44,809 nt of DNA, taken from assembly GCF_000311725.1 (NCBI RefSeq), contig NZ_HE978511.1:27089-71897 (forward strand), read 5' to 3'. The notes beneath the pieces are model-generated. The model was not told the origin of the DNA. It saw only the letters and a list, made by a program, of their open reading frames with translations, and ran no database searches. This DNA is from Robertmurraya massiliosenegalensis JC6. Lineage in GTDB: Bacteria > Bacillota > Bacilli > Bacillales > Cytobacillaceae. Numbering within the stretch: the stretch's first letter is position 1; every line of letters starts with the position of its first letter. The position numbers and the translations under genes were made by a program. Below, piece after piece: positions 28,662 to 35,994 of the stretch.

Positions 28662-29714
28662 TTATAATTCAAAGATATCATACAACATGTCCCTAGACTC
28701 TTCTGAATAACAAACTATTAGATCAATCCATTGCTTTAATCGATCAGCTTGAATAGGATTTTCACCTATTTCCCAAATATCTCTTAACCATTCTTCATCA
28801 GCATGAATAATCAATTCGATTACATCGTCTTTTACCAAAAATAATTGATGAAATATTTGCGGTTGAGATACCCATTTTTTTCTATTCGTATTAATATTTT
28901 GTTTTCCACCAGCAGAAAAAAGATCCCGCAGTGAGGTGTTAAGAGTTGATTTATGTGTAGCAAGCCATAAAGCTAATCTATTGTATTTCAATTGGCTACT
29001 TCCAAAAATCTCTGGAAACCATGCAAATGCTTCGATCTGGAGTCTCTTTTTTTCTTCTGCGTCAAGAGAGCTCCACAATTTAACAATCGGAGATACTGAA
29101 CTTTCTTCTTTAAGGTCGCCTTCTGTTATCCACCAAAGCTTTTGTCCTTGTTTTAATTGAGTTTTGTAGTATTCTTGAACTCTATTTATCGAAGATTCAC
29201 TGTTTCTAAATTGATCATATTCAACATCCATTTTTTCAAATATTGTATCTTCTGAGCTTAGACTCATATCAATTTTATACCGAGGAGAATGGGTAACAAC
29301 GATATCAGATAGGCATTCTTCATAGGGTCTGGCTCTAAATTCAACTGGTTCTGATAACTTGCCAAAAAGCAAAAATATTCGTTCTACACTCTGTATTCTT
29401 GTAGATTCAACAATACTACTTCCAGTACTTGTCCAATTTTTCCCCTTCGAAGTTTTTACCTCAACACCATAATATTTTGATGCGATTATATCAGGAAAAC
29501 GTTGATTAGATATTAATTCAATTGTATCTTCAAAAACGGTTTCTTTAGCAAATCTTACCATTAGTTCAAAAATATCTTCCTCTAACTTAGTTCCATTTCT
29601 ACTTAAATAATAATCTGGTCGTCTGACAGCATCTTCATTCAAATATTTGCAAGTTTTATGCACAAGTTCGGTAAATGCTTCATATGAAGGCTTGTTGTTA
29701 GTTGAGATCAACAT
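28662..29714 (-). CDS. Type II restriction endonuclease (PD-(D/E)XK fold)
   Basis: 350 residues with the catalytic PD-(D/E)XK signature: FPDIIASKYYGVEVKTSKG, with P74-D75 and E85-V86-K87. The rest is not family-specific (TGSSIVESTRIQSVERIFLLFGK is a beta-strand-rich core continuation). Its ATG lies 5 bases from the methyltransferase stop, giving a classic restriction-modification pair on one transcript with the methyltransferase first. It should cut DNA lacking the methyltransferase's m5C mark. The recognition site cannot be deduced from the sequence. Confidence 0.82.
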   Translation of the reverse strand: MLISTNNKPSYEAFTELVHKTCKYLNEDAVRRPDYYLSRNGTKLEEDIFELMVRFAKETVFEDTIELISNQRFPDIIASKYYGVEVKTSKGKNWTSTGSSIVESTRIQSVERIFLLFGKLSEPVEFRARPYEECLSDIVVTHSPRYKIDMSLSSEDTIFEKMDVEYDQFRNSESSINRVQEYYKTQLKQGQKLWWITEGDLKEESSVSPIVKLWSSLDAEEKKRLQIEAFAWFPEIFGSSQLKYNRLALWLATHKSTLNTSLRDLFSAGGKQNINTNRKKWVSQPQIFHQLFLVKDDVIELIIHADEEWLRDIWEIGENPIQADRLKQWIDLIVCYSEESRDMLYDIFEL

Positions 29715-29719
29715 ATAGT

Positions 29720-31072
29720 TTATTCCCCTTTAAAATAAAGGTCCCAGTTATCTTCCAATCTTTTTGCAATATGATATCCTAGTAATGGCGGTACAGCATT
29801 TCCAATAATTTTATAGGCACTAGATGCAGATAAACCATTAGTATTTTCATTCTTTTTCCAAACAAATTCATAATCATCTGGAAATGTTTGTATTCTAGCG
29901 CATTCTCTAACCGTTAAACGTCTCTGCTTCATCCCTTTTGAAAGTTCTTCTCCTATTTTTCCACCATTTTCTTCTGATAACCTTCTAAACTCAATATTAC
30001 CATGGTGTTCTGAGCGAATGGTTGGTCCAAGCCCTGAAAGATTAACTTCTGTTTGGCCTTGACAGTGCTTTCCCATAAATTTAGCTTTAGAGTAACTTCT
30101 TTGTGCTAAATCATCACTTTCCTCTGGTTCTTTTAAATCGACAAACGCTTGTTTTACGGTAACAAACTTTCGCCGTTGATCTTCTTCGTTGATCGCAAAA
30201 ATATTAGGTTGATCGTTTGGTAAGAAATGAGTTTTTTTAGGGTAGGGATCGTACATATCTGAAATAAAATCCTTCGATAATTCTTGTAAAGTACCGGTAT
30301 TTAATGCATCTTTTCTAAAACCATAGAAAATGACTCTCTCCCTTGATTGTGGAACACCGTACTCTGCTGCATGAAGAACTTTAGCTGGAATTACGAGATA
30401 TCCATTCCCGCCTATCATTCTAAAGTCATTTTCAATCACTTCTTTTACATCACCTAAATTAACTAACCCTTTTACATTTTCAGCCACAAATACTTTCGGT
30501 TTCGTAATGGAAATGACTTCTCTCATCCACATATATAGCTGTCCACGACTTTCAACACTCGGCTCAGACGCCTCATACAATAGCCCTGTATGCGATTTAT
30601 TCGAATTAAAACCTTGCCTTTTACCTGCTATTGAAAAATCTTGACATGGGAATCCACCTGTAACCACATCAATATTCTCTGGAAAAGAGTTATTACCCTC
30701 ATCATGATATTTTTTCACAAGATCAACAATACTCTCTAAGTGATAAGTTTTGCTAGAAATTCCTCTTTTTCCAAAAAATGATTGCCAAGCTAACTTTGCA
30801 TCAGGTCGTATATCATTTGCGAATACAGTCTTAAATCTAGTTTGTTTAAGAATAGACCAATTTTCATCAATTTCTTTCGTGAACCAATGAGGATTGATAT
30901 CTTTATTAAGTGAATCTTTAAGCACTTTAAATCCACCCTCAAAGCCAAGATCCATTCCACCGCATCCAGAAAATAAAGATAATAGATTTATATCTTTTTG
31001 GGTCTTAATTCTATTCTTTACAATGTTTTCTTCGGAATCTTGTAACTCTTTTTCCAATATACTTAAAGTCAT
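29720..31072 (-). CDS. DNA (cytosine-5)-methyltransferase of a type II R-M system
   Basis: 450 residues with ordered m5C motifs: I LLSLFSGCGGMDLGFEGG (residues ~30-47), IV VTGGFPCQDFSIAGKRQGF with the catalytic Cys143, VI VFVAENVKGL (~195-203), VIII RERVIFYGFR, and IX/X RLTVRECARIQTFPDDY and YKIIGNAVPP. The target-recognition region lies between VIII and IX (about residues 255-365). It methylates cytosine C5 in the recognition sequence to protect against the partner nuclease at 28662-29714. No controller (C) protein gene is seen. The upstream gap to 31424 is AT-rich with no gene. Confidence 0.94.
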   Translation of the reverse strand: MTLSILEKELQDSEENIVKNRIKTQKDINLLSLFSGCGGMDLGFEGGFKVLKDSLNKDINPHWFTKEIDENWSILKQTRFKTVFANDIRPDAKLAWQSFFGKRGISSKTYHLESIVDLVKKYHDEGNNSFPENIDVVTGGFPCQDFSIAGKRQGFNSNKSHTGLLYEASEPSVESRGQLYMWMREVISITKPKVFVAENVKGLVNLGDVKEVIENDFRMIGGNGYLVIPAKVLHAAEYGVPQSRERVIFYGFRKDALNTGTLQELSKDFISDMYDPYPKKTHFLPNDQPNIFAINEEDQRRKFVTVKQAFVDLKEPEESDDLAQRSYSKAKFMGKHCQGQTEVNLSGLGPTIRSEHHGNIEFRRLSEENGGKIGEELSKGMKQRRLTVRECARIQTFPDDYEFVWKKNENTNGLSASSAYKIIGNAVPPLLGYHIAKRLEDNWDLYFKGE

Positions 31073-34111: not shown

Positions 34112-34148
34112 AATAAAAAAACAAGGTGGGCTCTTCGTCCCACCTTGT
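34112..34148 (-). terminator. Terminator of the DsrE-YedE-TusA operon
   Basis: A perfect stem ACAAGGTGGG / CCCACCTTGT is followed by TTTTTTTATT on the minus strand. It begins two bases past the TAG at 34150. It therefore fits the full-length, UGA-containing frame and not an early stop at 34342. Confidence 0.92.
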
Positions 34149-34149
34149 C

Positions 34150-34395
34150 CTACTTTACCACTTTTATATAAAAGTAAATATCTTGTCCATCCTTTTCCGG
34201 CTCTTCGACTAGTTCATATCCATGTTTAACAGCTTCTTCAGGAACACTGCGGAAGGATTGAGGACAATCCGCAATGACCTCCAGCACTTCTCCGATTCTC
34301 ATGGTTTTCAGCGCATCCAGCGCATAAATGACTGGGTATGGTCAAGGCTCACCGCGAATATCTAAAGTATAGTCAATTTCTAACTCTTGAGACAT
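34150..34395 (-). CDS. TusA/SirA-like sulfurtransferase-fold protein, candidate selenoprotein with in-frame UGA
   Basis: 81 residues if UGA is read as an amino acid. The ATG at 34395 follows AAGGAGGGG and lies 3 bases after the YedE-family stop. The start MSQELEIDYTLDIRGEP-U-PYPVIYALDALKTM matches the TusA/SirA/YedF signature LDxRGxxCPxP. The catalytic Cys is codon 18, a TGA at 34344-34342. All else is intact: RIGEVLEVIADCPQSFRSVP, then the usual strand and tail, a TAG and a terminator. A SECIS-like hairpin follows the UGA. SirA-like selenoproteins with U in this place are known in other bacteria. The neighbours are YedE- and YedF/DsrE-type selenium/sulfur genes. The alternative is a Cys-to-stop mutation. 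Confidence 0.8.
34306..34328 (-). promoter_or_regulatory. Candidate bacterial SECIS element
   Basis: The minus-strand RNA 13 bases after the UGA folds as UUU-(AU)-GCGC-[UGGAU]-GCGC-(UG)-AAA: a 4-bp GC stem capped by a 5-base loop with two guanines, and a lower 3-bp AU stem across a 2x2 internal loop. The apical loop begins 22 bases after the UGA. This fits the bacterial rule (loop 16-37 bases from UGA, G among the first two loop bases) and resembles E. coli fdhF, whose GGUC loop is similarly placed. It was folded by eye only. Confidence 0.6.
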
Positions 34396-34398
34396 GAA

Positions 34399-35631
34399 TT
34401 ACCCCTCCTTTACGACAATATGCTTTGTTTGTTCTTGTTTGATCCCTTTGCCATAACGGAAGCGTTTTTCCCACCAGTTAGAGAACAAGAACCAGAGTAC
34501 TAGCATCGCTAATGTGCCAAAAAGGGCTCCAGTTGCTCCCCACTCATTGATTAAATTGACCCGTGGCCATCCAGCAGCCAGTGCGTTGAAGATGCCAAGG
34601 TGATCCCAGCCGTAAGATAGTATCGTAGCACCGACAATATTCCCCGCTCCGACAACGAAGAATAGCACTTGTCCTTCCATAGCACGATACATCATTCCAG
34701 TTTCACAACCACCAGCAAGAACAATTCCGAAACCAAATAAAAGTCCCCCAATCACCGTACTTGGTGCAGCCATTTTGATAATTTGGGCAGAACCTGTTTG
34801 GATAAAAATGAACGTAATCACAACACTCACCATCATTCCTACTGCAATCGCCTTTGACATTACGGCACGCCCGCTAATCCATAGATCACGGAAAGCGGAT
34901 GTGAAACAAATTTGGCCACGTTCAATTAAAATACCAAATAATGCCCCAGCAAGTGCGCCCACCGCAAGAAGAACCTTTCCAGTAGCTAGGAAATAAATAA
35001 TAATTGCTCCATACAAGATAGCTACGCTCCACCCTAAGATGGGCTGGATATTGGATTGTTTAACGTGATTCTTTCTAATCACTTTTTTTCCCTTATTGCT
35101 TTGTAAGTTCGGCTTTCCCAGCCACCATTTCGTATTAACGACTTTTACACCAAAGTATGTTCCAATCGCTGTCATGACCATAAAAATCCAAGCATGGAAG
35201 GAAAACTGAGGAACTCCTGTGAAGAAGGCAGCTAAATTACATCCCATTGCCAGCCTTGCGCCAAAGCCTGCGATAATCCCACCAATAAAGCCTTGTACAA
35301 GACGACGTTTTTGCTTAGGCATACGGATTTTAAAACTACCACTTAACAAAATCATCATCAATGCTCCAACAAGCATTCCGATCACTATCCAACCATCTGT
35401 ACGGTTAATAGGCGAGCCATTTAGTCCGATTAACTCAAAATAGGCCCATTCAGATACATCAACTCCGAACAACTGCAGAACATGTCCTCCTAATCTAGTA
35501 AACTCTCCTGTGACTGCCCATACAGTTCCGGTTATACCAAAATACAGTGCACTTAGTAATCCTGCAATTCCAATCGCAAAATAGGGATTCCAGTATTGTT
35601 TGAATATCTTGTTGTATAGATTCATTTTCAT
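34399..35631 (-). CDS. yedE: YeeE/YedE-family transporter (selenium/thiosulfate type)
   Basis: 410 residues with ~10 membrane helices in two pseudo-repeats (Sulf_transp, PF04143). Conserved cysteines lie in GARLAMGCNLAAFFTG (C131), ERGQICFTSAFRD (C242) and LAGGCETGMMYRAMEG (C309), as in thiosulfate importers of the YeeE/TsuA group and in YedE (FdhT), linked to selenium metabolism. AAGGAG precedes an ATG, with a second ATG two codons on. It lies between a DsrE-like gene and a TusA-like gene; in other bacteria these two domains are often fused as YedF beside yedE. The cargo, selenium or sulfur species, is not decided by sequence. Confidence 0.9.
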   Translation of the reverse strand: MKMNLYNKIFKQYWNPYFAIGIAGLLSALYFGITGTVWAVTGEFTRLGGHVLQLFGVDVSEWAYFELIGLNGSPINRTDGWIVIGMLVGALMMILLSGSFKIRMPKQKRRLVQGFIGGIIAGFGARLAMGCNLAAFFTGVPQFSFHAWIFMVMTAIGTYFGVKVVNTKWWLGKPNLQSNKGKKVIRKNHVKQSNIQPILGWSVAILYGAIIIYFLATGKVLLAVGALAGALFGILIERGQICFTSAFRDLWISGRAVMSKAIAVGMMVSVVITFIFIQTGSAQIIKMAAPSTVIGGLLFGFGIVLAGGCETGMMYRAMEGQVLFFVVGAGNIVGATILSYGWDHLGIFNALAAGWPRVNLINEWGATGALFGTLAMLVLWFLFSNWWEKRFRYGKGIKQEQTKHIVVKEG

Positions 35632-35655: not shown

Positions 35656-35994
35656 TTATGATAAAGTCAGGACTTCATATTTTGAAGCTAATTCAATAAA
35701 ATGGGCCATGCTACTGATATTTCCAGCAACAAGCTTCTCCCCTAGCTCATAGTAATCTACACACGTTTTACATGCTAAAATATCGACGCCCTTCTTCTCT
35801 ATTTCAACTAACTGAAGGGATACGAACGAACTTTCGGTTAGTGTAAAAACACCTCTGTTCATACAGAAAATAGCTTTTGGTAGTTTTTCTTTTTGCTTAA
35901 GAATGGCAAAGAACGTTTCTAGTATATTCTCTCCTAGCGCAGGTTCTCCCATCCCGAGCTGATCTGATGATAATAAGATTACTTTGTTTTCCAT
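35656..35994 (-). CDS. DsrE-like protein resembling the C-terminal domain of YedF
   Basis: 112 residues. VILLSSDQLGMGEPALGENILETFF opens the DsrE/DsrF-like fold. AIFCMNRGVFTLTE and the Cys pair in VDILACKTCVDYYELGEKLVAGNISSM (C75, C78) match the second half of YedF (selenium metabolism protein). The protein probably binds a sulfane-sulfur or selenium group on cysteine and passes it to the TusA-like partner. ATG with AGGAGAGGG. First gene of the operon, 24 bases from yedE. Confidence 0.85.
   Translation of the reverse strand: MENKVILLSSDQLGMGEPALGENILETFFAILKQKEKLPKAIFCMNRGVFTLTESSFVSLQLVEIEKKGVDILACKTCVDYYELGEKLVAGNISSMAHFIELASKYEVLTLS

Follow-up and report, generated by a model that had tools for sequence, protein, structure and literature searches.

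The window analysed here, a stretch of 44,809 nucleotides from the genome of Robertmurraya massiliosenegalensis JC6, carries a run of three genes on its minus strand: a DsrE-like gene (35994-35656), a yedE gene (35631-34399) and, last, a yedF gene whose frame is interrupted by one UGA codon. This is the arrangement that the initial annotation had described as an operon with a YedE-family transporter and a DsrE-like protein. The features of the run, all on the minus strand, are as follows.

35656..35994, minus strand: DsrE-like protein of 112 residues (match to positions 84-186 of TIGR03527, 100.3 bits, under the cut-off of 110).
34399..35631, minus strand: yedE/fdhT membrane protein of 410 residues, with three conserved cysteines at 131, 242 and 309 (NF033796, 568.9 bits, cut-off 350).
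34404..34410, minus strand: ribosome-binding site AAGGAGG (from the sequence).
34150..34395, minus strand: yedF-Sec, a TusA-fold protein of 81 residues with predicted selenocysteine (Sec) at residue 18 (translation; Pfam TusA and NF008242 scores).
34342..34344, minus strand: UGA, predicted Sec codon (U18), in place of the CPxP Cys (translation; comparison with homologues).
34118..34151, minus strand: hairpin followed by a T run, resembling an intrinsic terminator, where yedF-Sec ends (terminator scan).

When the TGA is read as U, the yedF-Sec frame encodes 81 residues with a single U, at position 18, and meets no further stop until the TAG at its end (MSQELEIDYTLDIRGEP-U-PYPVIYALDALK...); by the standard code it stops at residue 17. 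U18 takes the place of the Cys in the motif LDIRGEPUPYP. Translation therefore bears out the earlier description of a frame from 34395 to 34150 that is open save for one TGA, at 34344-34342, falling on the invariant Cys of the family. The further claim that the family pattern is kept after the TGA also holds: with C in place of U, the protein scores 75.5 bits against Pfam TusA (cut-off 28.6) and 109.3 bits against the YedF model NF008242 of NCBIfam, above the curated cut-off of 79. Because a typical YedF has Cys in the CPxP motif and this protein has Sec, we file it as a variant and not as a typical member. It is the sole place in the window genome above the YedF cut-off; at E 1e-8 two further places come up, with 41.8 and 37.4 bits. 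The part of the gene that lies 3' of the TGA is under strong purifying selection, with a median dN/dS of 0.07 and a maximum of 0.31 over the 58 usable pairs of the 91 that 14 chosen sequences provide. As to expression signals, the strong ribosome site that had been noted is present as AAGGAGG at 34410-34404. The proposed terminator just past the TAG corresponds to a terminator-like hairpin of 13 pairs with a T tail that starts at 34151, at the stop codon; a scan of the region returned 2 such sites where 2.3 were expected, so the count itself is no evidence. Elsewhere in the genome, on contig 5, five TusA-domain matches, all free of internal stops, are grouped in about 13 kb and form a separate sulfur-relay region (L089).

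The codon state was compared across relatives at several taxonomic depths. A search of 193 genomes from the same family gave a yedF match at E 1e-8 in 56: 47 carry TGA at this exact codon, 8 carry a Cys codon, and the last (L086, in genome G081), a Cys-containing TusA of more distant kinship, was left out of the codon counts. Alignment of orthologues at position 18 thus shows that the relatives are not all of the Cys type and that most matched genomes of the family (47 of 56) have TGA there. A miscalled base is excluded, the TGA being seen in dozens of separate assemblies. No genome among the 193 combines a U form with a Cys form at the same threshold. The Sec elongation factor gene selB is present in 170 of the 193 genomes and in all 47 that have a TGA yedF (co-occurrence p = 0.001); since selB is so common in the family, this co-occurrence alone is weak support.

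A scan of named genomes found 47 U and 33 Cys forms among the best 80 of 174 relatives, shares that are not to be read as a census. Within these 80, the U form occurs in Robertmurraya, Mesobacillus, Neobacillus, some Cytobacillus, Schinkia, Calidifontibacillus and Aneurinibacillus, as well as in Brevibacillus massiliensis and Tumebacillus lacus; the Cys form occurs in Paenibacillus, Cohnella, Bhargavaea, Oceanobacillus, other Cytobacillus and one Aneurinibacillus. Robertmurraya siralis comes closest among them (96% of the protein). Broader samples, which overlap with one another and with the family sample, gave lower frequencies. In the order sample a yedF protein was found in 14 of 397 genomes, 7 of them with U, and in the class sample in 33 of 398, with 18 U and 15 C, both samples being evenly drawn and including the window genome. 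For six of the class genomes (G1279, G1295, G1007, G1116, G1074 and G1104) the entry C means that no internal stop was reported, the codon itself being unread; in G1287 it is TGC, and the one internal TGA reported for that genome lies elsewhere than at the Cys position. The locus of G1104 (L242) was unmatched by the codon-reading pattern, and L145 was read by hand as a Cys form. In the phylum sample of 398 genomes, 7 score over the YedF cut-off and TGA occurs in the window's own genome only.

Comparison of the UGA and Cys genes brought out a SECIS hairpin shortly after the UGA, with the following parts.

34307..34328, minus strand: bacterial SECIS hairpin, whole (comparison, covariation and RNAalifold).
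Lower stem UUUA/UGAA with a bulged U at 34324, minus strand (comparison).
34323-34320 with 34314-34311, minus strand: upper stem GCGC/GCGC (comparison).
34319-34315, minus strand: loop UGGAU, starting 22 nt after the UGA.

Of 47 distinct UGA sequences in the family, 46 share GCGCTGGATGCGCT without a single difference, even at synonymous positions; Cys genes vary in this stretch. With identical sequences counted once, the 4-bp upper stem is intact in every one of 60 distinct UGA sequences and in none of 39 distinct Cys sequences. A later draw from the class, which contributed 9 new UGA and 8 new Cys sequences, gave the same result: the stem was present at 16/16 UGA loci and at 0/9 Cys loci. L241, a Cys gene of this draw, retains three of the four pairs. 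The GG of the loop is no discriminator, being present in 19/39 Cys genes. Over codons 7-10 after the UGA, the commonest synonymous codon has a share of 0.996 in UGA genes versus 0.501 in Cys genes, and outside these codons synonymous constancy is 0.586 and 0.576, respectively. The passages of PMC13188914 that set out a bacterial SECIS model call for an upper stem of 4-16 bp, a loop of 3-9 nt with G in its first two positions, a distance of 16-37 nt from the UGA and a minimum free energy of -7.5 kcal/mol or lower. With 4 bp, a 5-nt loop, G at loop position 2 and a distance of 22 nt, the yedF element lies within the limits given there for stem, loop, G and spacing. Of four 30-nt hairpins that were folded, three sit right at the published energy limit (-7.5 kcal/mol for the window, L032 and L033) and that of L075 gives -5.8.

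RNAalifold, applied to 35 sequences, recovered the hairpin with its bulge, plus a short stem containing the UGA. Thermodynamic folding of single sequences did not single the hairpin out: the window RNA alone is not unusually stable (z -0.37), and its minimum-energy fold need not contain the element. Comparison alone identified it. Rfam at gathering scores gave no match in the window. A covariance model built on the element found one site at E <=1 in the window genome, the yedF site itself, with 150 of 3405 first-look candidates scored. This model gives 52-85 bits to UGA genes and 14.6-43.7 bits to Cys genes; it matches the latter too because it also spans coding sequence.

Compensatory change supports the pairing. 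At the outer pair, AU has replaced GC in the Schinkia group and also, once more, in L232 and L233, and L172 has GU; the third pair has changed from GC to AU in L075, at the cost of an Ala to Val replacement; and UA to GC changes in the lower stem mostly come with Ile to Met and Lys to Gln. Among close relatives a first count was weak, with 1 two-sided change, matched by 12/500 shuffles, and the signal became clear only with distant U forms. The two sets were chosen rows, 35 of 60 and then 44 of 69 distinct sequences. In the 44, two-sided compensatory change fills 19 cells against 6.0 +/- 1.8 in shuffles, with 0/500 as high, and sliding the stem partner destroys the pairing. The upper stem alone has 6 two-sided cells versus 0.7 and is paired in 176/176 cells (100%); pairing in the lower stem is less strict, and one of its pairs is broken in 9/44 sequences. 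A control of 22 rows chosen from the 39 Cys genes is 57.4% paired and has no two-sided excess. The shuffles ignore kinship and the rows are mostly related bacilli, so these cells are not independent events; the stronger arguments for a SECIS are the matched Cys control and the fact that the outer pair changed in two separate groups. On this comparative evidence, a hairpin that is kept by compensatory changes, some of them costing amino acids, is to be regarded as a bacterial SECIS. On a YedE tree made by a quick method from 79 of the best 80 of 174 relatives, three changes between U and Cys are required. Aneurinibacillus sp. Ricciae_BoGa-3, a Cys form, stands beside a U-bearing Aneurinibacillus on this tree and has a broken stem (ACGC-TCGAT-GCCC), which may reflect a change from Sec to Cys with loss of the SECIS.

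The genome of the window (4.96 Mb, 24 contigs) has the full gene set for Sec decoding: all four genes that the initial annotation had named, selA, selB, selC and selD, were found. SelB scores 359.9 bits (cut-off 242), SelA 565.4 bits and SelD 386.8 bits. The tRNA-Sec scores 56.7 bits against an Rfam cut-off of 47 and is called SeC, anticodon tca, by ARAGORN; as 5 of 14 control genomes also pass the Rfam cut-off, that score alone is not specific and we give more weight to the ARAGORN call. Other genes also appear to use Sec. SelD itself (contig 8) has an in-frame TGA at the catalytic Sec position, SKAGUGCK, followed by a SECIS-like hairpin with loop GUU. Three FdhA matches (L211, L215 and L216) have one in-frame TGA each, and only L211 is over the model cut-off. 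In L211 and L215 the TGA lies at the Sec position and is followed by a SECIS-like hairpin, that of L211 having a strong stem and the loop GGUCU; L216 was not found by the Sec-motif pattern. Near selA and selD lies a short frame with a CxxU motif (L088), which resembles a SelW-type selenoprotein.

The genes around yedF were compared in the same relatives. A yedE gene lies directly upstream of yedF on the same strand in 80/80 named loci (the best 80 of 174), with a median gap of 10 nt (range -13 to 107). Wherever one of 80 YedE rows, the window's own among them, has a residue at one of the three conserved Cys positions, that residue is Cys. A relative of the DsrE-like gene occurs in the flanks, up to 4 kb, of 12/47 U loci and 0/33 Cys loci of these 80. 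In YedF, a second Cys follows 26 residues after the U or C in 67/69 distinct U sequences and 47/47 Cys sequences. In the other two U sequences (L081 and L082, from two genomes of genus g18) it lies three residues further on, hinting that the Sec/Cys pair is needed. Among individual loci, L064 (genome G022) has two UGA yedF copies about 2.4 kb apart, only one of which directly follows yedE. At L127 and L070 yedE falls into two tblastn pieces beside an intact Sec-yedF, likely through a frameshift or an assembly error.

The structure predicted for yedF-Sec (pLDDT 87.8) places it among TusA-fold proteins. A fold search with this model returned as its best match YeeD of the YeeE-YeeD complex (8j4c and 8k1r; E 7e-7), then TusA, with the NMR model 1JE3 in ninth place (TM-score 0.57). 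1JE3, which we take to be E. coli YedF (NF008242/PRK11018), is the best sequence match among solved structures and shares with yedF-Sec a similar length, the TusA fold and the GEPxPYP and DCPQS motifs. It differs in having Cys, whereas yedF-Sec has Sec and a SECIS built into its coding sequence. The likeness to YeeE-YeeD (TsuA-TsuB) extends to gene order, a TusA-fold partner being encoded beside a Sulf_transp membrane protein in both; U18 occupies the position that Cys17 of YeeD holds in the CPxP motif, and E. coli YeeD also has a second Cys. In contrast, yedF-Sec scores 29.5 bits against the TsuB model NF041048 and does not reach its cut-off of 147.5, YedE is below both TsuA models (120.2 versus 400 and 71.6 versus 645), and the substrate of YedE-YedF is presumed to hold selenium. 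Both halves of the fused YedF of TIGR03527, a TusA part and a DsrE part, are encoded in the operon as separate proteins, the DsrE-like protein being by its match the C-terminal half; they score 25 bits (TusA part) and 100.3 bits (DsrE part), below the model's cut-off of 110.

A UGA at the codon of the catalytic Cys, a full set of Sec-decoding genes, a covarying SECIS and selection after the UGA together lead us to conclude that Sec is almost certainly inserted at U18. The initial proposal that this UGA is decoded as Sec is thereby supported: the genome has selB, selC and selD, the relatives are not all of the Cys type and the base is no miscall. That the gene product is a Sec-containing YedF is the explanation that best covers the whole, and we hold it to be very probable. 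The more specific assignment of the protein to selenium capture, which draws on analogy, has somewhat less than an even chance. In the YeeE-YeeD system, as described in part of PMC11073785, three Cys of YeeE form a relay that carries thiosulfate to Cys17 of YeeD, where it is bound and decomposed; the two Cys of E. coli YeeD are both important for growth. By analogy with that transfer to Cys17, we infer that YedE would hand a selenium species to Sec18. Sec-tRNA-Sec would be delivered at U18 by SelB sitting on the hairpin; YedE would pass a selenium anion, or a mixed Se/S anion, along its three conserved Cys; the anion would reach Sec18 of YedF at the cytoplasmic exit and be bound there; and Sec18, with Cys44, would release reduced selenium for SelD. 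Through SelD, this selenium could then supply the Sec-FdhA, the Sec-SelD and YedF itself. It is possible, though doubtful, that YedE-YedF(Sec) goes further and constitutes dedicated selenium uptake by group translocation, a Cys-Cys-Cys relay ending on Sec as its fourth residue. If so, the selenium importer would itself need selenium, and the supply line from YedF-Sec to SelD-Sec would feed itself. Deletion of a yedE operon in Methanococcus maripaludis caused no clear defect in selenium uptake, with redundancy named as a possible reason in the passages of PMC11097638 concerned; this result counts against a simple transporter view of YedE.

Two other readings accept the insertion of Sec and differ in what the protein does. 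YedF-Sec may instead be a redox or detoxification enzyme that acts through a selenylsulfide pair of U18 and C44, with YedE as exporter, and that would remove excess or oxidised species of selenium and sulfur. The near-constant second Cys fits this reading, since the pair seems needed, and passages of Lin et al. 2015 (PMC5322559) suggest an exporter role for YedE and a redox role for YedF. The closest solved relative pair, YeeE-YeeD, nevertheless imports, and the other Sec genes of the genome fit a need for selenium supply; we give this reading a minor but appreciable chance. Somewhat less plausible, and on balance unlikely, is that YedE-YedF serves the biogenesis of formate dehydrogenase directly, in an FdhT/FdhU role, and not general selenium supply. 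YedE passes the YedE/FdhT model (NF033796), the genome has three FdhA matches with an in-frame TGA, one over the cut-off, and FdhU is said to regulate selenium-dependent formate dehydrogenase biogenesis in Campylobacter (Pryjma 2012 and Shaw 2012, via the part of PMC5322559 that cites them). The three-gene run is nevertheless without an fdh gene. Read-through of the UGA by other means, either suppression that inserts Trp or Cys or a regulatory short peptide, is most improbable: nothing specific favours it, the Sec machinery is present, the TGA falls exactly on the catalytic Cys, and the SECIS-type stem, present in the UGA genes, is missing from every Cys gene examined. That the TGA merely truncates a dead yedF, through decay or sequencing error, accords with the standard-code stop at residue 17 and has next to no chance, given a TGA common to 47 family genomes, strong selection after it and a hairpin that is kept.

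A selenocysteine-containing YedF appears to be new to the catalogues. YedE and YedF have been tied to selenium by comparative genomics (in passages of PMC5322559 and PMC2432076), and YedF figures in the relevant part of a survey of Epsilonproteobacteria (PMC4607533); the passages of these three papers describe no Sec form of either protein, and neither do those of the deep-Sep paper (PMC12013277) and the ISME 2016 paper (PMC5029168) describe a Sec form of YedF. The initial annotation had regarded SirA-like selenoproteins with U at this Cys as already known, and this could not be confirmed: neither Table 1 of the 2022 selenoprotein list (PMC9312934) nor Table 1 of the 2026 list of 119 families (PMC13188914) has an entry for TusA, SirA, YedF or PF01206. 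The literature searched on SirA-like, YedF, TusA, COG0425, FdhT or FdhU proteins and selenium, and on Sec proteins in these genera, likewise yielded no report of a Sec form. What the tables of the two catalogues do include is a DsrE-like and a YeeE/YedE protein with Sec (PMC9312934, PMC13188914). These are likewise sulfur-relay or transport proteins with Sec, from families other than that of yedF-Sec. The Sec form of YedF is thus, on the comparative evidence, a well-supported and apparently unlisted variant, found in many Bacilli and with a clear SECIS.

It would add a member of the TusA family to the selenoproteins. According to the relevant passages of PMC13188914, prokaryotes have no known selenium transport system that is both specific and of high affinity, and the selenium donor to SelD is unresolved; YedE and YedF are long-standing suspects in selenium handling without a settled function. 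A natural Sec form in named isolates of Neobacillus, Mesobacillus and Robertmurraya offers a residue to label, trap and mutate. Standard-code annotation would be expected to truncate the gene in dozens of genomes. Matched sets of UGA and Cys genes, the first with the hairpin and the second without it, also make this a clean case of SECIS gain or loss.

Elsewhere in the window, at 28662-31072 on the minus strand, a C5-cytosine DNA methylase (PF00145, 189 bits) is followed by a protein of 350 residues without a Pfam match, perhaps its restriction partner.
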